This document shows positions 40,212 to 52,772 of a stretch of DNA of 64,000 bases, piece after piece. The position numbers were made by a program, and so were the translations under genes. The notes under the pieces were generated by a model. That model ran no database searches. It was not told the origin of the DNA and saw nothing but the letters and a program-made list of their open reading frames with translations. Numbering within the stretch: the first letter of the stretch is position 1; the number at the start of each line of letters is the position of its first letter. Origin of the DNA: Nitrospinaceae bacterium (GTDB lineage: Bacteria; Nitrospinota; Nitrospinia; Nitrospinales; VA-1); NCBI GenBank assembly GCA_021604505.1, contig BQJC01000001.1:682001-746000 (forward strand). Direction: 5' to 3'.

Positions 40212-41735
40212 TTAGAACGGAATGGAATCGAGGGCGAGTTGCATGAGTGCGGAGGGGAAAATGCCAAGTAGAAGAATAGCCACGGTGCTCACCATGACAA
40301 TGGCGCCCATGCCTTTGTTGATGGTGAAAGGGACATCACCCTCTTCTTCGTGAAAATACATCATCACGATCACGCGCAGATAGAAATACACTGAGATCAC
40401 GCTGGCGACGACCGCCAGGACCGTTATCAGAATGTACCCGGATTTGATGGCGGCGACAAACACGTAAAACTTACCGAAAAAGCCAGCCGTCGGGGGGAAA
40501 CCCGCCAGGGAAACCATGAACAGGCTCATCGCCGCCGCCAACCGGGGATTGCGCTTGGCCAGCCCCTTGAAGCGGTGAATCGAGTTGCCTTCTTCACCTT
40601 CACCCTCCATGATGAACACCACGGCAAACGCGCCGATGTTCATGAACAGGTAAATCGCCAGATAAAACAGGATACTGGCAACACCTTCCTCACTGTTGGC
40701 CACGATGCCGATCAAAAGATAACCGGCATGGGCGATGCCGGAATAGGCCAGCATGCGTTTTAAGTTGTCCTGAAAAATCGCCGCGATGTTGCCGACCAGC
40801 ATCGTCAGGACGGATGCGCCGAACAGGAACGGCATCCAGATTTCCTGGAATTGCGGCAGGGCGATGTAGAAAATCCTCGCGATGAGAGCGAGCGCCGCCG
40901 CTTTGGTGGCAACGGACATAAATCCGGTGATCGGTGTTGGAGCGCCCTGGTAAACGTCAGGCGTCCACGAGTGAAAAGGCACCAGCGATACCTTGAATCC
41001 CAGCCCGCAAAACATCAGCGCCATCCCGATATAGACCAGCAGGTTCGAACTGTAAGGGTTTTCCCGGATCAGTTGACCGACCAGACGAATCTCCGTGGTT
41101 CCCGTTCCCGCATAGATCATAGCCATTCCGTAAACCAGGACTGCCGAGGCGAAGGCCCCGGTCAGCAGATATTTAACCGTCGATTCCTGAGAAGCCTGAG
41201 TTTCCCAGGAAAGTTCATCGACGGTGGATGGCGTTTCGCGTCCCGTGCCGTGTTTTGCTGAAAATCCGCACAGGATGTAAAGCGCCACGGAAAAAATCTC
41301 CAGCGAAATAAACGCGGTGATCAGGTTGCCTGATTTTGCCAGAAACATCATTCCCATCACCGCGAATAAGACCAAAGAGAAGTATTCGGCCTTGTTTTCG
41401 TGGTCCGGTTGCGGGTAACGCACCGATCCAAAGATCGCGAACAGCGACATGAGCAGAAAAATGATGTTGAAGGTCTGGGAAAACCGGTCGTTGAGCAGCG
41501 CATTGCTGAACATTTCCGGAGTTTCCCCGTTGGAAGCCGTCGGCGCCAGACCCCAAAGGTAAACGGAGAAAAACAGCGCGATCATCACCCCGGAAAGCGA
41601 AGTCTGGGAAAGGTATTGGTTTGAGTTGAGGGTCTTATTGAGCCCCACCATCAGGACGAACAGCGCCGTGATCAGCACCGTGAGTTCCGGTGCCAGGGCC
41701 ATCCAGTTCATGTCAGCAAAATTGATGAGACTCAT
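40212..41735 (-). CDS. nuoN: NADH-quinone oxidoreductase subunit N
   Basis: 507 residues with about 14 membrane helices, an antiporter-like proton-pumping subunit of complex I. Typical segments include the conserved Lys/His-containing helix around Pro-Phe-His-Ser-Trp-Thr-Pro-Asp-Val-Tyr-Gln-Gly and Ala-Tyr-Ser-Gly-Ile-Ala-His-Ala-Gly-Tyr, which marks NuoN. Length is normal (about 480-510). It lies alone on the minus strand about 16 kb before nuoA, although nuoN normally ends the nuo operon. nuoL and nuoM are not in the window. Confidence 0.95.
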   Translation of the reverse strand: MSLINFADMNWMALAPELTVLITALFVLMVGLNKTLNSNQYLSQTSLSGVMIALFFSVYLWGLAPTASNGETPEMFSNALLNDRFSQTFNIIFLLMSLFAIFGSVRYPQPDHENKAEYFSLVLFAVMGMMFLAKSGNLITAFISLEIFSVALYILCGFSAKHGTGRETPSTVDELSWETQASQESTVKYLLTGAFASAVLVYGMAMIYAGTGTTEIRLVGQLIRENPYSSNLLVYIGMALMFCGLGFKVSLVPFHSWTPDVYQGAPTPITGFMSVATKAAALALIARIFYIALPQFQEIWMPFLFGASVLTMLVGNIAAIFQDNLKRMLAYSGIAHAGYLLIGIVANSEEGVASILFYLAIYLFMNIGAFAVVFIMEGEGEEGNSIHRFKGLAKRNPRLAAAMSLFMVSLAGFPPTAGFFGKFYVFVAAIKSGYILITVLAVVASVISVYFYLRVIVMMYFHEEEGDVPFTINKGMGAIVMVSTVAILLLGIFPSALMQLALDSIPF

Positions 41736-41999: not shown

Positions 42000-44900
42000 A
42001 TGTTGATTCGCAGAGTGTCGCTCCTGTTTCCCGCCATCGCACTTCCGATATTTTTGTTTTCGGTCACCCTTCAAGCTTTTGCCTCTTCGCAATTCAACCG
42101 CCCCATCCAGGTAACGACGCATCCAGGTGAGGACTTTGCCCCCACGTTGTCTACAGACGGCAAACGCATGATTTTTGTCTCCGACCGCTCCGGCAACCTG
42201 GACCTTTGGTTGAAACACAGGGGCCAGGGCGTTCAGCCCCCGGATGAGCAGTTGACATATCACAGCGCCGAAGACAACTTCCCTAAACTGAGTCCTAAAG
42301 GCAACCGCATCGTATTTGTTTCCCACCGGTCCGACCCGAAAGGCGATATTTACCTCATGGACCTTGGCAAAGGGAGATCAGAAGAGATCCGCCTGACCGA
42401 GGCTGATTTGCCAGAAGAAGACCCGGAATGGTCCCCCGATGAAAAATACATTTATTTCACGTCGGTCCATCCGGAAACCAGACAACGCGGAATCTTCAGG
42501 ATGGAACTGAAGAATAAATCGAAATCCCTGCTGATCGAAAATGCAGTCAACCCCGCAGTCTCTCCTGATGGACGATACCTGGCTTTCGTTTCGAACAATG
42601 AAAACCGCGACCTGTGGGTTCAGGATTTAAAATCCGGGTCTCGCATTCAGATGACTTCCGGTTCTGAGATAGAGATCACTCCTTCCTGGTCGAAAAGCGG
42701 CGGTCATATCTATTTCACCCGCTATCAGGAAGACACCAATTTTGACGGGGAGGTGACGATTGACGACAACCCCAGTATCTGGAGAGTTGAATTTCTTGCC
42801 AGAAAGGCGGGTAATTTACGCCAATTGACCGACAGTTTGTCTTACGACCTGTTCCCGGCCATTTCCGCTCCAGGAAGTCTGGTGTTTACCTCCAACCAGA
42901 GAAACAGCATCGATATCTGGGAAGTTCCGGGAGAAGGATTACTGCCCACAGCCTCCGGTTACGGCAATTCCCTTCAGGTTGTGGATGACCTGTGTTCGGG
43001 GCCGGAAGGTTATTCTTATTCCTGCCTTTTGGGGTACACCAATCTGATCCACGAGTTCGATGGAGAAGACGGCCTTGCCCGCACCCGTTACCGGCGGGCG
43101 CTCGGGTTTAAGAAAAAAGGGCATCTCGACACCGCTTACCGTTGGTTTAAAGATCTGATCGAAAAACATCCTGACGAAAAACTGTACCGGGGATTGGCGG
43201 AGATCGATCTTTTATTGCTGGATCTGAACCGTTCCCGGCTGGAAGGACAGACCGTCTACAAACAAAAGATCACTGAAGCGCTGGAGTTTCTGGAAAAAAT
43301 CCCCGCCCGTTATCCCGATTCCTCGGCGATCGGGGCGCGTGCGTTTACGGAAATGGGCAACCTGCATTTCCAGTTGGACAATCACGAACGTGCTCTGGAA
43401 TTGTACAAAAAAGTCATCATCCAATACCCCAGTCAGCGGTTTTTGTCGGCAGAAGCGGCCTTTTCCAAGAGTCAAATCTACTCTCTGGTAGGCGACCGGG
43501 AGAGTCTGGTGCAGACCTATGTGCAGGTCGTGAAGGATTACTACGACGTCGATTACTGGACCGAAAGCGCGGTCGAGGAAATTCTGGAAATTTATGAAAA
43601 ACAACCCACCCTCGAAAAGAAGGTATCGAGTCTGCAAGCCCTCACGGTTAAATACAAGGACATTCCCCGTTTGGCCGGCTCCATTCAGAACCGTATCGGA
43701 GAGCTTTTTTACCAGGCCAACGAAAACCTGTTAGCCAAGGAAGCCTACAAAAAAACCATCGGCCAGTATCCTAAAGCAAGTTCTCAAGTATTTAATGCCA
43801 GGGTCGCTCTCGCAAATATTTATTCCGAAGAAGAAAATTTTGAAAAAAGCCTGGCGTTCTACGAAGAAATTTCCGCGGGCTCCGATTTGCTCCAGGACCA
43901 ACAGCAAAAGGCAAGGGATGGATGGATACGCAAAACGGTGGAAAAGGGAACCTGGGAACTCAGAGTGGGGGAGGTCAAGCTGGCTCTGAAAACCTTCCTG
44001 AAGCTGATCGATGCAAGCCCCGAAACGGTGGAAGCGCATCGCGGTTATCTGCAAGCGGCGGCGGCCTTGAAAAAAATCGACAGCGCCGTCCAGTTTTATA
44101 AGGAGCGGTTGAAGAATCGGAAAGATTCCGCTGTGGATCATTACGCGTTGGGATTGGCCAATACCTATCTTTCTCCGCCGGATTTTGAGCAGGCGGAACA
44201 ATCGGTCTCCCAGGCGTTGGAAATTGATTCCCAGCAGGTTTTCTTTCATCAGACCCTGGGCTACATTTTTGAGCAAAAAGAGCGGTTGGCGAAAGGGGAA
44301 GATTATCTGGAACGGGCGGTTTCCGAATATCAGATGGCTCTGGCCTTGAACGATGAGAACGCCGATCCTGAAAACGAGGCCAACCTGACTCTAAACCTCG
44401 GCAATGGGCATTATCTTCTGAACAACCATTTTTCAGCCTACCACTATTACAACAGAAGAAAGTTGAGCGGCGTCCCGTTTTTTAATACCCAGCGGGAAGG
44501 CATTTTTCATCAGAGGTTTGGCGAGAGCGCTTTCAAAGCCGGGTTTCATGACGAATCCCTCGCACAATACCAAAAAGCTCTCAAGATCGTTTCCGAAAAC
44601 AAAGAGCTGAACCGCATGGCGGAGCTCAACGACCGGATCGCCTTGGTCTATCAGGATATGGGGAATCACGCCAGGGCCGTGGAGTTTTTCTCCAAAACGT
44701 TAGAGCTCAATCAACAAGCCGGCAATCAGGTGTCCCATTCCCGTTCGCTCAGAAACATCGCCAACAACCTTTTCATGTTGAATCAGGAGCAGGACCATCC
44801 GGACACCCAGTCCATGAACCGGGCGCTCAATAAATATTTTCAGGCCATCGAGAGCCTGGAAAAGCACGGTGTCGTGCAACGTGCGAAAAAGAAAGAGAAA

Positions 44901-47900
44901 GGCGGATTGATAGGCATAGATATTCAAACCGGGGTGGGAGAAGACGCTTCCGCCGCGGCCACCGGGTTTGACCGGGTCGGCGAACAAAAACTCATTTTCC
45001 ATTTTATCGGTAGAATTTACGGAGATTTCCGGGAATACGGCAAGGCGGTCGAATATTTTAAGAAAAAACTCGCCTTGATCCCCAAGGACCTCGACATTGA
45101 AAAGAACATCCCTGTTATTTTAGAAAAAGCCCTGCTCCAAAACCAGATCGGAAACTTTTTGTTTCACGAGGGCCGGTACGACGAAAGCCTCGATTATTTT
45201 AAGGAGTCGTATCAACTCAGCCGCAAATTGAACAACAAATACGGAATTGCGGTGAATGCCGCAAATATAGGCCGCGCGGTTTTCATCAAGTGCCAGTATC
45301 AACCCCTGGCGCCTTTAAAAGTGGAAATCCAGGCCGCGGTTCGGCTTCTGGAAGAATCGTCCAGGGAGATGGGGCCTATAGAAACGTCTCCCAACCCGGA
45401 ATACATTCTGCTGAACAAAAATTATCTCGGAGTTTTTAACCATTACCTTGGATATTATCTTCCTGGGAATTCCACGTCCGGGCCAGGCACAGACAACTCA
45501 TCGGAGGCGATGAAGGCCATTATTAAAGCCTCGACTTTGGACCTCAGGCAGGACTTGGATTATATAAAGCGATCCCGGAATTATTTTGAAGAGGGGCTTT
45601 CCCTGCTTTCAAAGAGTAAAAAATCGTTTCCCGAACTGGAAACCGTGCTCCGGCAAAATCTGGATTTGACCGTCGGATTGACCGGAAAAGAAAAAGGCAA
45701 AGCTAAAGGGGAAACAGAAAACGTTCCGCCACCTCAGCTCAAATGGAAATACAAATACATCGAGTCCTTGATTGCAGAGCCCTCCAAGCGTTTGCCCCTT
45801 CTTCTGGAGGCGGAACAGCTTTTAGCGGCGCTTCCCTACGGTGTTGTGAGCAAGGATTTTTCCACGCTTGCGATGGTAGAGGATCTCTACCTCGCGCTCA
45901 CCCGCTTGTTGTATGACGAGAAAGAATTTCCCGGAGCCTTACTTTTTTCCGAAAAGGGACGCCAGCAGTTGTTGCTGGCCCTTCGGCCTGAGTTGGAATT
46001 GATCGATGAAGACCGGCGCAACTATTATGATGAACTCAGCGGGTATGCCGGCCGCTACCTGACGGCGGCTTCCCTGGAAGCGCAGGGCATGGGCGATGAA
46101 GCGGAGCAGGGAACCGAAGAAATTGTGGAAGAGTATAACGAAGTCTTAGACATGCTTAAGGAGGACAATCCCGCCCTTGCCGCGTTGTTTTCTCCCTATG
46201 TTCCGCGGCTTGAAGAAACCCAGGGTCAGCTTCGTCCCGGAGAGATTCTGCTGATTTACAAGATGGTCTTTGACCGTTTGCTGATTTGGAAAATAGATTC
46301 GGAATCCGTCCATGTGCGCGGGATTGGCCAAACCGCGGAACTCTCCGAGCGTATCGCGCGTTTGGGAAGGGAAGGCGCTGATCCGACCGTTGCCGACATC
46401 AACTGGCTTTCAAAGTTTCTGATCGCTCCCGCCGGGAAAGCCATTCAAAAAAGCAAATCGTTGACCCTGCTGGCGGATGGGGCATTGGAGTTTCTTCCCT
46501 GGGCCGCTCTGCGCCTGGAAGGGCAGACTTTGATCGAAACGGTTCCAGTGACGTTTATTTCTTCTTTGGCGCAACACCATTTTGCCGAGTCTAAAAAGAA
46601 CCTTTACAATTCCAGGATTCTTGCAGTGGACGCTTCCGGTTTCGATAAGGCGGCTGTGAGTTTTACTTCCTCCGCCAACCTTGCGGGGGAACAAACCCAT
46701 CTCGATCAATTCCGGGATCTTTGGCCGCACTACGGCGTGGTTCAGATCGACAGCCGCACCCACTTGGGCCGTCTCGATCCCTTGGACTCCTTCATTTCCA
46801 TCGGCGGGCGTCAAAATCATTTTCAGCGGATAGAGCTTCGCGATCTTTTCGTACAACCTGTGGATTCAAATCTGATCGCTTTGAATCATGTCGAGCCGGA
46901 ATTTCATCCGGAATTGCGATTGTCACCCACCACACCCCTGATCCAGGCTTTGACCGTCAAAGGATATCCTGGAATTCTGATGCACCGCGGAGCATTTGAT
47001 CCCGCCGTTCACGCAGAAATAATGGAAGTGTTTTATCAAACCTTTCGCCAGGGAAAACCGGCCGAGTCTCTAAGACAGGCGCAAATCGAAATGAGTGCGC
47101 GTTATCCCGGGTCCCTGGCGTGGGCCGGATACCGGTTTTACGGATTTCCGGGAATGGAGGGCGCGGAGAAACAGGAATTTGCCCAGACTCATTTCCTGGG
47201 CAACGCCACAAAAGGCGCCCAGGCTTTTACGGAAAGCAATTGGCTGGGCGCCATCGATCATTTGGAAAAGGCTCTCGCCCTGGTCGATTTTCTGGAAGAC
47301 AAGAGCCTGGTTGAAAGAATCATCAAAACCCTGGCCCAGGCCGCATACAACCTGGAAGATTACCCCAAGGCGATTCAATACCAGGAAGAGCTTGTGAAAC
47401 GCGCCGAGCAAAAAGAAGACCCTGAAGAGCGGGCGGAAGCGCTTTATTTTCTGGGAATCTTGTATTCCAGGGCGGAGAATTATCCCGTCGCCGTCGAGCA
47501 TTTACACGAGGCGCTGGCTATTTATGAGCAATACGAAATTCTCGACCGTCTGGCGGAAAACTACAGCACCCTTGGAATTGTTGAAGAGAACTCCCTGGAT
47601 TTTGACAAGGCGCTTGAAGCCTTCACCGCGTCTTTGGCCCTCAACGAAGAGATCGGTGAAGACCTGAACCAGGGGCGTGAACTGCGGCGCATCGGCAGGA
47701 TTTATTACCTGCGTCTGAACCAGTACGAGCAGGCCAAGCAATATTTTCAGCAGGCGTACCAGTTGTTCCAGGAATTACAGCACACCGAACAAAAGGTGGA
47801 AACCCTGCTGGAGTTGGGGCTGGTCTCTGAGAAGCAGGGGGATTTCACTCAATCTTTAAAGTTCTATCAACAGGCGCAAACGCTGGCTTCCGCGGAAGAT

Positions 47901-50036
47901 TTAAAAGCGGGGCTTTCCAAGGCATTGCTCTACCAGGCGAATTCTCACTGGTACCAGGGAAATTACCAGAAGGCGTTTCGTTTTCAAAAAGAGTCGCTTG
48001 AAATCGCCGAAGCGATAAAGGACAAACGCCAGCAGGCGTTTATCTACAACACCCTCGGATTGATTTACTGGACGTTGAACGATTCCGAACGCGCCCTTAG
48101 GAACCTGAACCGCAGTCTCAAGCTGGCCGAAGAGATCCAGTCGCCTCTTGATGTCGCGTCTGCAAATAACAACATCGGTCTGGTTCACCGAAAAGACAAG
48201 AACTACGAAAAATCCATCGAGTTTTTCAACCGAGCACTGGCAAAGGACATCGAGCTTAAATCCAAATGGGGGCAGGGATACACTCATCGCAACCTGGGAA
48301 TGAGTTTTATGCGCATGAAGCAGTTGGATAAGGCGGAAACTCAAATTGCCCAGGCGATCGCCCTGAGCCGCGAGATCGGCAACCAGACCAATCTGGTGAA
48401 ATCCATGCTCGAGTCCGCTCATCTGGCCTTGGAAAAAAATGATTGTGAAAAGGCGATTCCGGGTTTTCAGGAAACCGGCCAGCTTGCGGCAAAATTGAAC
48501 ATCCCCGAAGTTCACTGGCGGGCCTTACGAGGGCAGGGCGCCTGCCTGGCAAAAGCCGGGAAACTGGCCGAGGCTTTGGACCCCTACAAACAGGCGGTGG
48601 CGGTGGTCGACGGCATGCGCGCCGCGATCAAAGTGGAAGAATTTCAAAACGGTTTTCTGACCGACAAACAGGATGTCTATAAAGAATTGATTCTGGTCCT
48701 GCTCAATCTGGGAAAAGTGGAGGAATCGTTTAACTACGCTGAACGGGCAAAGTCCAGAAGTTTTATCGATCTTTTGGGCAACCAGAAAATCAACCTGAAA
48801 AACGACGTCAGCCAGAAGCTATATAACCAATTGACCGATCAGAAACAGAAGATCCGTTCCATTGAAGACGCACTTGGGGTTGCCCGGTCAGGAACCGATG
48901 AAGAAGAAATGAAACGCCTTGCGGAAGACCTGGTGAAAGCCCGCAGTCGTTATCAGGACCTGTTGATCCAGGCCAAGGAGGAAAGCCCGGAAATTTCCAA
49001 TTTCGTAACCGTGGAGTCCATCACTCTAAAGGAACTGGAGAAATTGCTGGAACCGGAGGTGGCCCTTATAGAATATCTGGTGACCGCAAACGAACTGGTC
49101 GCCTGGGTCATCCGGCAGGGCGGCATTGAGGTCGTACGCACGCCCCTGAAAGAAGCGGAACTGAATGCGCTCATCAAAGATTACAGAAAACGCATGCAAC
49201 AACTGGCGCCTTTGGAGGACCAGGCCGCGCAACTTTATAACTGGTTGATCCGGCCCATCGATCCGTTAATCGACAAGAAGCGGGTGTTGGGCATCATTCC
49301 TCACAGTCATCTGCATTACATTTCCTTTTCTTCTTTAAAGGATGGCGAAAGTTATTTGATGGAAAAGTATCCCTTGTTTTTCTCGCCCAGCGCCTCGGTG
49401 TTGAAATTTACTTTTGCGAGAAAAACGGCTAAAAGCGAACCGGGAGCGGTGAAGGTTTTAGCGCTCGGAAACCCTGATCTGGGCGACTTCAATTACGACC
49501 TGCCTCTGGCGGAGATGGAAGCCAAGTCCATCAAATGGGATTTCCCCCAGATTGATGTTCTGACCCGTGACAAAGCCACCGAAAGCTGGCTCACCGAACA
49601 TATTGGGGAATACCAGATCATTCATATTGCCTCGCACGGCGAGTTCGATCCCATCAACCCTCTGTTTTCATCGCTGAAGTTGACTAAAGATGTAAAGGAG
49701 GATGGAAATTTTGAGGTCAATGAGGTGTTTTCCCTGCAAATCAATGCCGACATCGTCACCTTGAGCGCCTGCCAGACCGGGCTGGGTGAGATCACCGGCG
49801 GAGATGAACTGGTGGGGCTCAACCGCGCGTTTATTTATGCCGGGACGCATTCCCTGCTGTCGTCGTTGTGGCGGGTCAGCGATATTTCCACCGCCATTCT
49901 CATCAAACATTTTTACCGCAATTATGCGCTGAATAATAAAGCCGAAAGTTTGCGCAAGGCGCAACTGCTGGTCAAGAGGCTGTATCCGCATCCTTCGTAT
50001 TGGGCGGGTTTCAATTTAACGGGGGATTACCGTTAG
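42000..50036 (+). CDS. Giant exported PD40/TPR protein with two CHAT domains
   Basis: 2678 residues, uninterrupted. A signal peptide (about 1-28) leads to TolB/PD40-type propeller repeats (about 35-310) with recurring Ser-Pro-Asp-Gly/Lys-Tyr-Ile/Leu-X-Phe. A long TPR array follows (about 340-1100), then a helical region. A first CHAT-like domain (about 1400-1720) lacks the catalytic Cys. A second TPR array (about 1730-2230) and a coiled coil lead to a C-terminal CHAT domain (about 2345-2678). This one has His2546 (Ile-Ala-Ser-His-Gly-Glu) and Cys2591 (Leu-Ser-Ala-Cys-Gln-Thr-Gly), the caspase-like dyad. CHAT proteases cut protein substrates selected by partner domains. The signal peptide implies action outside the cytoplasm. 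It stands alone; no gasdermin-like or other target gene is adjacent. Confidence 0.9.
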   Translation: MLIRRVSLLFPAIALPIFLFSVTLQAFASSQFNRPIQVTTHPGEDFAPTLSTDGKRMIFVSDRSGNLDLWLKHRGQGVQPPDEQLTYHSAEDNFPKLSPKGNRIVFVSHRSDPKGDIYLMDLGKGRSEEIRLTEADLPEEDPEWSPDEKYIYFTSVHPETRQRGIFRMELKNKSKSLLIENAVNPAVSPDGRYLAFVSNNENRDLWVQDLKSGSRIQMTSGSEIEITPSWSKSGGHIYFTRYQEDTNFDGEVTIDDNPSIWRVEFLARKAGNLRQLTDSLSYDLFPAISAPGSLVFTSNQRNSIDIWEVPGEGLLPTASGYGNSLQVVDDLCSGPEGYSYSCLLGYTNLIHEFDGEDGLARTRYRRALGFKKKGHLDTAYRWFKDLIEKHPDEKLYRGLAEIDLLLLDLNRSRLEGQTVYKQKITEALEFLEKIPARYPDSSAIGARAFTEMGNLHFQLDNHERALELYKKVIIQYPSQRFLSAEAAFSKSQIYSLVGDRESLVQTYVQVVKDYYDVDYWTESAVEEILEIYEKQPTLEKKVSSLQALTVKYKDIPRLAGSIQNRIGELFYQANENLLAKEAYKKTIGQYPKASSQVFNARVALANIYSEEENFEKSLAFYEEISAGSDLLQDQQQKARDGWIRKTVEKGTWELRVGEVKLALKTFLKLIDASPETVEAHRGYLQAAAALKKIDSAVQFYKERLKNRKDSAVDHYALGLANTYLSPPDFEQAEQSVSQALEIDSQQVFFHQTLGYIFEQKERLAKGEDYLERAVSEYQMALALNDENADPENEANLTLNLGNGHYLLNNHFSAYHYYNRRKLSGVPFFNTQREGIFHQRFGESAFKAGFHDESLAQYQKALKIVSENKELNRMAELNDRIALVYQDMGNHARAVEFFSKTLELNQQAGNQVSHSRSLRNIANNLFMLNQEQDHPDTQSMNRALNKYFQAIESLEKHGVVQRAKKKEKGGLIGIDIQTGVGEDASAAATGFDRVGEQKLIFHFIGRIYGDFREYGKAVEYFKKKLALIPKDLDIEKNIPVILEKALLQNQIGNFLFHEGRYDESLDYFKESYQLSRKLNNKYGIAVNAANIGRAVFIKCQYQPLAPLKVEIQAAVRLLEESSREMGPIETSPNPEYILLNKNYLGVFNHYLGYYLPGNSTSGPGTDNSSEAMKAIIKASTLDLRQDLDYIKRSRNYFEEGLSLLSKSKKSFPELETVLRQNLDLTVGLTGKEKGKAKGETENVPPPQLKWKYKYIESLIAEPSKRLPLLLEAEQLLAALPYGVVSKDFSTLAMVEDLYLALTRLLYDEKEFPGALLFSEKGRQQLLLALRPELELIDEDRRNYYDELSGYAGRYLTAASLEAQGMGDEAEQGTEEIVEEYNEVLDMLKEDNPALAALFSPYVPRLEETQGQLRPGEILLIYKMVFDRLLIWKIDSESVHVRGIGQTAELSERIARLGREGADPTVADINWLSKFLIAPAGKAIQKSKSLTLLADGALEFLPWAALRLEGQTLIETVPVTFISSLAQHHFAESKKNLYNSRILAVDASGFDKAAVSFTSSANLAGEQTHLDQFRDLWPHYGVVQIDSRTHLGRLDPLDSFISIGGRQNHFQRIELRDLFVQPVDSNLIALNHVEPEFHPELRLSPTTPLIQALTVKGYPGILMHRGAFDPAVHAEIMEVFYQTFRQGKPAESLRQAQIEMSARYPGSLAWAGYRFYGFPGMEGAEKQEFAQTHFLGNATKGAQAFTESNWLGAIDHLEKALALVDFLEDKSLVERIIKTLAQAAYNLEDYPKAIQYQEELVKRAEQKEDPEERAEALYFLGILYSRAENYPVAVEHLHEALAIYEQYEILDRLAENYSTLGIVEENSLDFDKALEAFTASLALNEEIGEDLNQGRELRRIGRIYYLRLNQYEQAKQYFQQAYQLFQELQHTEQKVETLLELGLVSEKQGDFTQSLKFYQQAQTLASAEDLKAGLSKALLYQANSHWYQGNYQKAFRFQKESLEIAEAIKDKRQQAFIYNTLGLIYWTLNDSERALRNLNRSLKLAEEIQSPLDVASANNNIGLVHRKDKNYEKSIEFFNRALAKDIELKSKWGQGYTHRNLGMSFMRMKQLDKAETQIAQAIALSREIGNQTNLVKSMLESAHLALEKNDCEKAIPGFQETGQLAAKLNIPEVHWRALRGQGACLAKAGKLAEALDPYKQAVAVVDGMRAAIKVEEFQNGFLTDKQDVYKELILVLLNLGKVEESFNYAERAKSRSFIDLLGNQKINLKNDVSQKLYNQLTDQKQKIRSIEDALGVARSGTDEEEMKRLAEDLVKARSRYQDLLIQAKEESPEISNFVTVESITLKELEKLLEPEVALIEYLVTANELVAWVIRQGGIEVVRTPLKEAELNALIKDYRKRMQQLAPLEDQAAQLYNWLIRPIDPLIDKKRVLGIIPHSHLHYISFSSLKDGESYLMEKYPLFFSPSASVLKFTFARKTAKSEPGAVKVLALGNPDLGDFNYDLPLAEMEAKSIKWDFPQIDVLTRDKATESWLTEHIGEYQIIHIASHGEFDPINPLFSSLKLTKDVKEDGNFEVNEVFSLQINADIVTLSACQTGLGEITGGDELVGLNRAFIYAGTHSLLSSLWRVSDISTAILIKHFYRNYALNNKAESLRKAQLLVKRLYPHPSYWAGFNLTGDYR

Positions 50037-50042
50037 GTTGAC

Positions 50043-50963
50043 CTATCGTTTGGTGGGGTTGATTTGATGCACGATCAGCCAGTAGGCAATGGCCAGACAA
50101 AGCACCAGCGCTCCATACAGCACGACATCCATCGTTTGCGCGGGAGAAAGCGAGAGGATCAGTATTTTCCGAATGAGTGCGGCAATGGCCAGTGCGATGA
50201 AAGCTTCCAGGGCAAATTTTCCGCCGCGCAGGTGCTTCATTTCTTCATGGATCAATTCGATAGCCGCCCACAGAATCAGAAGACTGCCGAGGATGGTCAA
50301 AATTCCTTTTTCAATTTCTTCCTTTCCCGAGAAAAGCAGGTAGACGTCGTAACCGAACAGCCCAATGGCAAAAAACGCCACCATCACCAACGCGATGGCC
50401 AGCAGATAATTAAAATAGGAACTGGTTTTTTTCAAGACGCCCAACAAGGTCTTTTCAACGTTGGAGAGGGAAAGGAAGCGGCTCATCTCTCCTTCTCGAT
50501 AGGAACTGGTCAGCACATCGAGGTTGATATCGAGAACCCTTTCAATGGCCTTGAAGCGGTCCGTCAAATCCGCTTCGTTGTTGAATTGCTTTTTGACGCG
50601 GCCCAGGATAAAAACCCGGACATAATTAAACGCCGCATTGACATAATGGGTGGGAAGACCGAGTTTGACGTGGATTTCTCCGATTTTGTATAGCTTCATG
50701 AAATACGAGATATCATAAGAGCCCCCGAAAAGATCCAGGTACCATTGACGAATTTTCTTCCGGTGCCGCGCGAGGATCGTCTCGTCTTTTAAGAATTCCG
50801 CTGTTTTCCCAAACCCCCAGATAAATTCATAAAACCCCTTCAGGAATTCATCCGCCGCCGATTCCAATTGCGGTTTCATTTGTAAAAGCAGGGCTTCATC
50901 ATCCCTGGTGAAGCGGTAGTGCGCTTTTAAAGTTAGAAAATCTTTTTGTAATTCGATGTCCAT
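50043..50963 (-). CDS. Protoglobin fused to a PsiE-type membrane domain
   Basis: 306 residues. Residues 1-165 fit the sensor-globin (protoglobin) fold of globin-coupled sensors: Tyr16-Arg-Phe-Thr near the start and Ile-Gly-Glu-Ile-His98-Val-Lys-Leu-Gly-Leu-Pro, where His98 is the expected haem ligand. Residues ~183-300 form about four membrane helices with a conserved Ile-His-Glu-Glu-Met-Lys-His pattern between helices, as in PsiE (phosphate-starvation-inducible E). The globin would lie in the cytoplasm and sense O2, NO or redox state. It is coupled to the upstream gene by a TGATG overlap. PsiE itself has no proven function. Confidence 0.82.
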   Translation of the reverse strand: MDIELQKDFLTLKAHYRFTRDDEALLLQMKPQLESAADEFLKGFYEFIWGFGKTAEFLKDETILARHRKKIRQWYLDLFGGSYDISYFMKLYKIGEIHVKLGLPTHYVNAAFNYVRVFILGRVKKQFNNEADLTDRFKAIERVLDINLDVLTSSYREGEMSRFLSLSNVEKTLLGVLKKTSSYFNYLLAIALVMVAFFAIGLFGYDVYLLFSGKEEIEKGILTILGSLLILWAAIELIHEEMKHLRGGKFALEAFIALAIAALIRKILILSLSPAQTMDVVLYGALVLCLAIAYWLIVHQINPTKR

Positions 50964-51637
50964 CAGGTTAATTTTTGCGTGGGAAATTCGGGGAACACCT
51001 GGCCCGCTTCCAGCAGCACCCAGCTTTCTGAGGTGTCGCCGAGCACCAGTTCCAGAGAGTCGTTCAGTTTGATAAGCGGAAGGATTTTTTCAGGCAACCG
51101 CAAACGCACGGTTTCGTTTTCCCTGCGCCCTTTAAGAGTTACAATTTCATTGTCAATTTTTATTACGGAGAAAACATCGTTGACCGTGTTTACGATATCC
51201 GGATGTTGCTCCAGAATGCGTCCCGATTCGTGGTCGAGAAGGTGACTGAGTTGCAGGCAACGCTCCTGCATGGCGCACAAATCCTTGATCAAATCCATCA
51301 GGTTGAGATGCGAGAAGCCATGTTTGATGCCCTTTTTGTCCATCCATTTGAAAAACGAATACAGGTCAAACAGAACCGCGTTCATTTCACTTTTTTCGGA
51401 CACAGAACTGAACGGCAAAAACGCCACCACAAAATAACTGAGGTGAGATCCATCGATTTCCGTTGGGGAAGCGGTCACCCAGGGTTTTTCTTCCTCACCT
51501 TCATGCGACAGTTCCGCTTCCAACAGGGCGGTGTGAAACAATGAAAGACTGTGGCCCAGCTCCGGCGTCAGAGTGGATGGATCGCCTTTCACTCCGGTTT
51601 CGACCGCATATTCCCGCATCAATTCGTAAAGTCCCAT
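50963..51637 (-). CDS. Unknown cytoplasmic protein coupled to the globin-PsiE gene
   Basis: 224 residues from the ATG at 51637. The frame is open back to 51775, but that would overlap the preceding aminotransferase gene by more than 100 bases. It is mixed alpha/beta with a helical centre (about 80-150, with several Cys/His) and a beta-rich end (about 165-224) that carries Val-Arg-Leu-Arg-Leu-Pro-Glu-Lys. No signal peptide and no family that I recognise. The stop overlaps the start of the globin-PsiE gene. The position between a PhnW-like enzyme and a haem sensor suggests a shared regulon only. Confidence 0.72.
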   Translation of the reverse strand: MGLYELMREYAVETGVKGDPSTLTPELGHSLSLFHTALLEAELSHEGEEEKPWVTASPTEIDGSHLSYFVVAFLPFSSVSEKSEMNAVLFDLYSFFKWMDKKGIKHGFSHLNLMDLIKDLCAMQERCLQLSHLLDHESGRILEQHPDIVNTVNDVFSVIKIDNEIVTLKGRRENETVRLRLPEKILPLIKLNDSLELVLGDTSESWVLLEAGQVFPEFPTQKLT

Positions 51638-51650
51638 GGTTCTCAGTGCC

Positions 51651-52772
51651 TCATCGAATTTTAGCGGAGCAACATTCCTTGAGAATGCGCAGGCAGGTTT
51701 CGATGTCTTCAGTTTTGAGGTCGCCCATATTGGCGATGCGAAATATTTTGTTTGCGAGATTGCCTTGTCCGGCATAGATCACGAATCCATTGCTTTTGAG
51801 CCGGTCATGCAGATCGGAATAACCGATGCCATCGGGCAGGCGAAGGGCTGTGAGGCAGTTGGACCGCGACTCCTCAGGAATCAGAAACTCCAGCCCCATC
51901 TCGGAGAAACCTTGACGAAACAAACCGGCGGCTTGTTTGTAGCGCTGAATCCTTCCGGCGACCGTTTCCTCCATCAATTCGTCGAGCGCTTCATCCAGCG
52001 CGTAATGGATTTGCACCGCCGGGGTGAACAACATATCGCCGGCCTCCTGCGCCCCGTGATGTTTCAGCAGATTAAAATAGAGCGACCGGTCCGGAATATA
52101 ATTGAGGCGGCAAAGATCTTTCTTGCGAAACAACACAAAGGCCACGCCGGGCAGACCCTGAATGCATTTGTTGGCCGTTCCAATGGCAAAATCGATCGAG
52201 CAGGTTTTGAAGTCCAACTCATCCCCCGCTAAAGAGCTGATGCAATCGGTCAGGAATTTTTTTCCGTACTCGCGGGCCAGTTGACTGATGGGTTGGATCG
52301 GGTTGAGCAGGCCGGTCGTGGTCTCATGATGCACCAGAGCGACCACTTCAATCTCACCATGTTGCTTCAATGCCTGTTCAACATCCTCCATACGCGGCGG
52401 TTCCCCCCAGCCATAGGTCAACAGATGTTTTGGGAATTGGTAGATATCCGCTATTTTCGAGATGCGCTCTCCATACACGCCGTTCTCTATAATCAGAATC
52501 GATTTTCCCGGACTCAGGCAGGAGGACACGCCCATCTCCAACGCCGCCGTTCCGGAACCGGAAATGAGGACGGGAGTGTATTCGTTTTCGATGTCAAAAA
52601 CTTTCAGCAGTTTTTTCCGGATCGAGCCCATGAGATCGGCAAACTCGACTTCCCGGTGGCACAGATCGCCCCTCAGCAAGGCATCCCGCACCCTTGGGGT
52701 CACATTGACCGGGCCGGGGTTTAAGAGAACGTGTGGTTTCAAGGGATTCATTTTATATGGTTTAGAAATCAT
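51651..52772 (-). CDS. Class V aminotransferase, 2-aminoethylphosphonate-pyruvate (PhnW)-like
   Basis: A 373-residue PLP enzyme of fold type I. It opens with the family's Leu-Leu-Asn-Pro-Gly-Pro-Val and Asp-Leu-Cys-His-Arg-Glu, as in PhnW. His-His-Glu-Thr-Thr-Thr-Gly-Leu-Leu-Asn-Pro and Thr-Asp-Cys-Ile-Ser-Ser-Leu-Ala-Gly contribute to the PLP site. Ala-Asn-Lys-Cys-Ile-Gln-Gly carries the Schiff-base lysine. PhnW converts 2-aminoethylphosphonate to phosphonoacetaldehyde. Related class V members are serine- or alanine-glyoxylate aminotransferases, so the substrate is not certain. No phosphonate transporter or phnX is nearby. The gene leads a three-gene minus-strand set. Confidence 0.82.
   Translation of the reverse strand: MISKPYKMNPLKPHVLLNPGPVNVTPRVRDALLRGDLCHREVEFADLMGSIRKKLLKVFDIENEYTPVLISGSGTAALEMGVSSCLSPGKSILIIENGVYGERISKIADIYQFPKHLLTYGWGEPPRMEDVEQALKQHGEIEVVALVHHETTTGLLNPIQPISQLAREYGKKFLTDCISSLAGDELDFKTCSIDFAIGTANKCIQGLPGVAFVLFRKKDLCRLNYIPDRSLYFNLLKHHGAQEAGDMLFTPAVQIHYALDEALDELMEETVAGRIQRYKQAAGLFRQGFSEMGLEFLIPEESRSNCLTALRLPDGIGYSDLHDRLKSNGFVIYAGQGNLANKIFRIANMGDLKTEDIETCLRILKECCSAKIR

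Follow-up and report, generated by a model that had tools for sequence, protein, structure and literature searches.

A conserved Nitrospinota protein with a predicted signal peptide, a TolB-like propeller, and one dead and one dyad-bearing CHAT module

An 8-kb gene in a Nitrospinaceae genome encodes a single polypeptide with two CHAT modules, the first of which has lost both catalytic residues while the second has kept its His-Cys dyad. The gene lies in a 64,000-nt stretch of contig BQJC01000001.1, hereafter the window (Table 1). We read the product as an exported, single-chain CHAT-family sensor-protease, whose TPR2-CHAT2 half would be under the control of the propeller, TPR array 1 and the dead CHAT1, and we give this reading a probability of about 0.5. 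CHAT proteases are encoded in many bacterial genomes, and the function of few is known. A dead module preserved beside a live one across an order provides a natural test of the control of a CHAT protease by a pseudo-CHAT. Moreover, the conserved and probably exported form suggests an envelope use of caspase-like proteolysis in a widespread marine bacterial group.

Table 1. Features of the 2678-aa protein and their positions in the window
Feature	Position	Strand	Evidence or remark
Whole gene, 2678 aa	42000..50036	+	ATG start, no internal stop
Predicted signal peptide, aa 1-28, putative AFA/SS cleavage site	42000..42083	+	Hydropathy; N-terminal conservation
TolB-like PD40 beta-propeller, aa 34-331	42099..42992	+	Pfam PD40 E 1e-37; PDB TolB chains E ~1e-11, aa 41-241
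EF-hand-like loop, aa 245-256, within propeller; putative Ca binding	42732..42767	+	D-x-[ND]-x-D in 28/28 covering orthologues
Cys332/Cys342 pair, possible disulfide, just after propeller	42993..43025	+	Both Cys in 29/29 covering orthologues
TPR array 1, ~aa 352-1300	43053..45899	+	Pfam TPR families; approximate boundaries
CHAT module 1, catalytically dead, aa 1395-1745	46182..47234	+	Pfam CHAT halves; hhalign to CHAT2
R1586, CHAT1 position of catalytic His	46755..46757	+	R7/P17/K4/T1/L1 in 30 orthologues
V1631, CHAT1 position of catalytic Cys	46890..46892	+	V24/I4/A1/L1 in 30 orthologues
TPR array 2, ~aa 1760-2260	47277..48779	+	Pfam TPR_12, best stretch aa 1975-2045; approximate boundaries
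CHAT module 2, catalytic by dyad, aa 2330-2678	48987..50033	+	Pfam CHAT, whole profile
Catalytic His2546 (IASHGEF)	49635..49637	+	H in 30/30 orthologues
Catalytic Cys2591 (S[A/G]CQTG)	49770..49772	+	C in 30/30 orthologues

Domain order and the two CHAT modules

The original prediction of one open frame of 2678 codons, encoding in N- to C-terminal order a putative signal peptide, a TolB-like PD40 propeller, TPR array 1, CHAT1, TPR array 2 and CHAT2, was borne out by the ORF check, Pfam and the orthologues. Pfam searches of the ORF returned PD40, numerous TPR families and three stretches of CHAT, and TPR array 2 also matched the TPRs of G-protein-signaling modulator 2 in the PDB. The best named match, from a Nitrospinaceae MAG, covered residues 1-2678 with 71% identity in the top segment. 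Proteins with the same domain order, which the prediction had proposed to look for, were found as orthologues of matching length (2561-2786 aa) in four families of the order, indicating that the arrangement is more than chance. The two predicted CHAT modules are both present but not equivalent, CHAT1 lacking both catalytic residues and CHAT2 being catalytic by its dyad.

CHAT2 matched the whole PF12770 profile in the genome-wide CHAT search (aa 2408-2676, 199.9 bits, E 8e-59; cut-off, 24 bits), and this profile search found no CHAT elsewhere in the genome outside the 2678-aa ORF. Its mean column identity among orthologues is 80%. The PF12770 His-Cys dyad was found in CHAT2 of 30/30 orthologues and in CHAT1 of 0/30. 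In the nine closest pairs, the dN/dS of CHAT2 (0.07-0.14) was among the lowest values along the protein. The invariant dyad and these low values make it unlikely that the protein is a non-proteolytic envelope scaffold, whose propeller and long helical repeats hold complexes and whose CHAT modules are purely binding domains, even though repeats make up most of this very large protein and CHAT1 is conserved despite the loss of its dyad.

The Pfam match of CHAT1 (aa 1467-1713) is split, covering only profile positions 4-114 and 213-286 (52.4 bits combined). When profiles built from 24 CHAT1 and 20 CHAT2 sequences were compared with hhalign, the two modules were collinear over 312 columns (probability 99.2, E 3.5e-19). 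The CHAT2 motif IIHIASHGEF aligned with VVQIDSRTHL of CHAT1, and VTLSACQTG aligned with LIALNHVEP. No cysteine at all was present in CHAT1 of 28 of the 30 orthologues. The dN/dS of CHAT1 in the nine closest pairs was 0.11-0.25, similar to that of TPR array 1, which rules out a decaying relic. Since CHAT1 is dead in 30/30 orthologues and under purifying selection, it is a preserved pseudo-module and, judged by its sequence, a pseudoprotease that has been maintained.

An origin of CHAT1 by recent duplication of CHAT2 is not favoured. The CHAT1 profile gave 107 bits to L069, a Bacteroidota CHAT, versus 84 bits to its own CHAT2, and because of this ranking CHAT1 is taken as an old copy or a separate acquisition. 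In G003 (L063), a divergent partial relative from another family of the class, the translation, read by eye, likewise shows no dyad in its first module. AlphaFold models from shallow alignments had a pLDDT of 44.6 for CHAT1 (two sequences) and 42.5 for CHAT2 (three sequences); as the certain CHAT2 was modelled equally poorly, the low CHAT1 value is uninformative on its fold.

Predicted export and proposed mechanism

The predicted signal peptide, called from composition, hydropathy and conservation, combines basic residues with a hydrophobic core and a putative AFA/SS cleavage site (MLIRRVSLLFPAIALPIFLFSVTLQAFA/SS). It is the sole stretch with a KD19 hydropathy above 1.6 in the whole protein, and each of the 28 orthologues with a complete N-terminus has a comparable hydrophobic segment there. 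The propeller that follows is TolB-like, scoring 109 bits against the TolB equivalog TIGR02800, under the 343-bit cut-off; TolB proper is encoded elsewhere in the genome (C3:402224-403483, 377 bits). An EF-hand-type DxNxDGxxxxxD loop (DTNFDGEVTIDD) is kept in the covering orthologues (28/28) apart from single-position changes. Cysteines are few, and only three are conserved throughout, namely the catalytic Cys and the Cys332/Cys342 pair. Together, these sequence features support a soluble and probably extracytoplasmic protein. Of the envelope-located protease or signalling scaffold first proposed, export was supported by the predicted signal peptide, the Cys pair and the Cys-poor sequence, and the two CHAT modules were redefined as one catalytic and one dead module.

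The signal peptide would also serve a secreted or surface protein whose targets are other cells or the extracellular matrix and not components of the producer's periplasm, and calcium-rich sea water would suit an EF-hand-like loop of this type. However, the ORF and the genes scanned included neither a sorting domain nor an autotransporter barrel, and no secretion-system gene was seen nearby; we regard this placement as quite unlikely.

According to the sensor-protease model, the protein would be soluble once its signal peptide is removed, either in the periplasm or farther out. Sensing, docking and regulation would fall to a first half made up of the propeller and its EF-hand-like loop, TPR array 1 and the dead CHAT1, and proteolysis to a second half made up of TPR array 2 and CHAT2. 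Binding of a ligand, a misassembled envelope protein or a partner by the first half might shift the TPR scaffold, and this shift would align His2546 and Cys2591. The aligned dyad would then cleave a limited set of extracytoplasmic substrates. Counted against this model are the failure to find a partner or substrate in the locus comparison, the poor AlphaFold models of CHAT1 and CHAT2, which give no support to a contact between the modules, the many relatives that live without the gene, and the need of an extracytoplasmic cysteine protease to keep its Cys reduced. Allosteric activation through the TPRs and control by the dead module are proposed only by analogy with Csx29, whose activation involves the movement of a sensing region within the TPR domain and a new position of the catalytic His and Cys in the active caspase domain (PMC10028731).

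Comparison with known systems

In Csx29, a pseudo-caspase unit and an active caspase unit share a single chain (PMC10028731), and the protein resembles separase (PMC9729208). Csx29 shares with the present protein a TPR array followed by a caspase-like region, as well as the pairing of pseudo and active units in one chain. The profile match of CHAT2 to Csx29 (PDB 7y9x chain B, E 0.061) was weak and brought the His and the Cys into register. Csx29 is, however, only 751 aa long, acts with Cas7-11 and RNA, and has neither the signal peptide nor the propeller of the 2678-aa protein. Its TPR region ends near residue 411 and its catalytic residues are at 615 and 658. By an argument from length rather than from structural alignment, its pseudo and active units together correspond to about one module of ~345 aa here, and the 2678-aa protein therefore has a whole extra dead module. 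Cas7-11, Csx30 and a CRISPR array were absent among the neighbouring genes scanned.

CHAT has been described as the closest bacterial relative of separase (PMC9729208). Separase likewise has a long helical-repeat region, a pseudo-caspase and an active caspase, but it is regulated by securin and acts in eukaryotic cells. PDB profile searches with CHAT1 (E up to 10) and with CHAT2 (E up to 1) returned no separase chains.

Other relatives share single parts of the architecture. A Tenacibaculum protein (L035; Bacteroidota, 932 aa) has an apparent signal peptide, helical repeats and an active CHAT that is 29% identical to CHAT2, but it has one CHAT only, a C-terminal TM anchor and no propeller. Plasmid-borne cyanobacterial TPR-CHATs are ~24-29% identical to the TPR2-CHAT2 half and, among the matches listed, mostly align with the second half only (~70-76% of the query). 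HetF, a putative protease that needs its active site, differs in having its CHAT region in the N-terminal part and one TM segment (PMC8406250). TolB of the Tol-Pal system is similar in its PD40 propeller and in being exported, as is predicted for the present protein, and differs in that the propeller described here scores below the TolB cut-off.

Exported TPR-CHATs, as in Tenacibaculum, and pseudo/active caspase pairs, as in Csx29 and separase, both have precedents. The suggestion that the protein may not have been described therefore held only for its combination of a propeller, a second complete dead module and order-wide conservation, which was not found outside Nitrospinota in the 148 Bacteroidota genomes and the literature searched and for which we do not claim uniqueness. 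Searched with the CHAT1 profile, the 148 Bacteroidota genomes yielded only single-CHAT ORFs and no double-CHAT forms, and the phrase 'two CHAT domains' was not found in the literature searched. We tentatively suggest, while leaning towards doubt, that this may be the first extracytoplasmic caspase-type sensor-protease described with a full pseudoprotease module in cis. It would be possibly calcium-responsive, an envelope counterpart of the pseudo-caspase/caspase pairing, and vertically inherited in Nitrospinota.

Distribution and locus

The gene, recognized by a strong CHAT1 match, was found in 37 of 77 Nitrospinota genomes (its own included), in addition to the divergent G003, and three single-contig assemblies are among its carriers. 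A CHAT of any kind was present in 47/77. The gene occupies a single housekeeping locus, where its start is divergent from a nuoN-type gene. On its far side, many genomes have a gene for a 270-aa unknown protein, a class V aminotransferase gene, DUF4159, a GATase1-like gene and the nuo cluster. Empty sites were also observed: only ~320 bp (G051) and ~210 bp (G023) stand where the 8-kb gene would be, and the flanking genes lie together. The trees of the whole protein and of the adjacent NuoN had 14/23 splits in common, with 3 strongly supported conflicts; for the CHAT1 and CHAT2 trees, these values were 15/23 and 2. These data are most simply explained if the gene was present in an ancestor of the order, descended vertically and was lost repeatedly, and some exchange is possible.

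CHAT members characterised to date include Craspase/Csx29 and gasdermin-linked proteases (PMC9729208), but a cytoplasmic TPR-CHAT protease of defence or cell death, with the N-terminal hydrophobic stretch as a membrane anchor only, would be a long shot here, in view of the signal peptide followed by a TolB-type propeller, the conserved Cys pair, the Cys-poor sequence, the fixed housekeeping locus, and neighbours that include no defence genes and whose PADLOC matches were weak ones to generic components such as TPR and aminotransferase.

A conserved neighbour or substrate had been expected to support a defined system. Neighbours are indeed conserved, but nuoN and the genes for the 270-aa unknown, the aminotransferase, DUF4159 and the GATase-like protein persist in the same order without the CHAT gene and were rejected as partners. 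Being housekeeping genes that occupy the locus with or without the CHAT gene, they define no system, and no conserved partner or substrate emerged from the locus comparison across Nitrospinota genomes. In genera g5 and g9, a 411-aa gene without a Pfam match lies directly upstream of the CHAT gene on the same strand (L053:4948-6183). It was rejected as a strict partner, since ORFs of similar size adjoin nuoN in two CHAT-less genomes (L085 and L081), including one of the same size (L085:1127-2362).

Several other observations concern this locus and other genomes. The NuoN-type gene of the window (40212-41735, minus strand) lies apart from the nuo cluster; fifteen genomes searched have this type at 70-77% identity, and most also have a second copy at ~41%. 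At 50043-50963 (minus strand), the window encodes a fusion of a Protoglobin domain (Pfam E 2e-26) with a PsiE-type membrane domain (Pfam E 4e-24), found in this position only in near relatives. The 270-aa protein (50963-51775, minus strand) has no Pfam, NCBIfam or PADLOC match, and its gene adjoins the aminotransferase gene in many Nitrospinota. Apart from the long protein, G038 has several CHAT matches on contigs C1, C11, C21 and C44, in ORFs of up to 1146 aa, which suggests a local expansion of TPR-CHATs.
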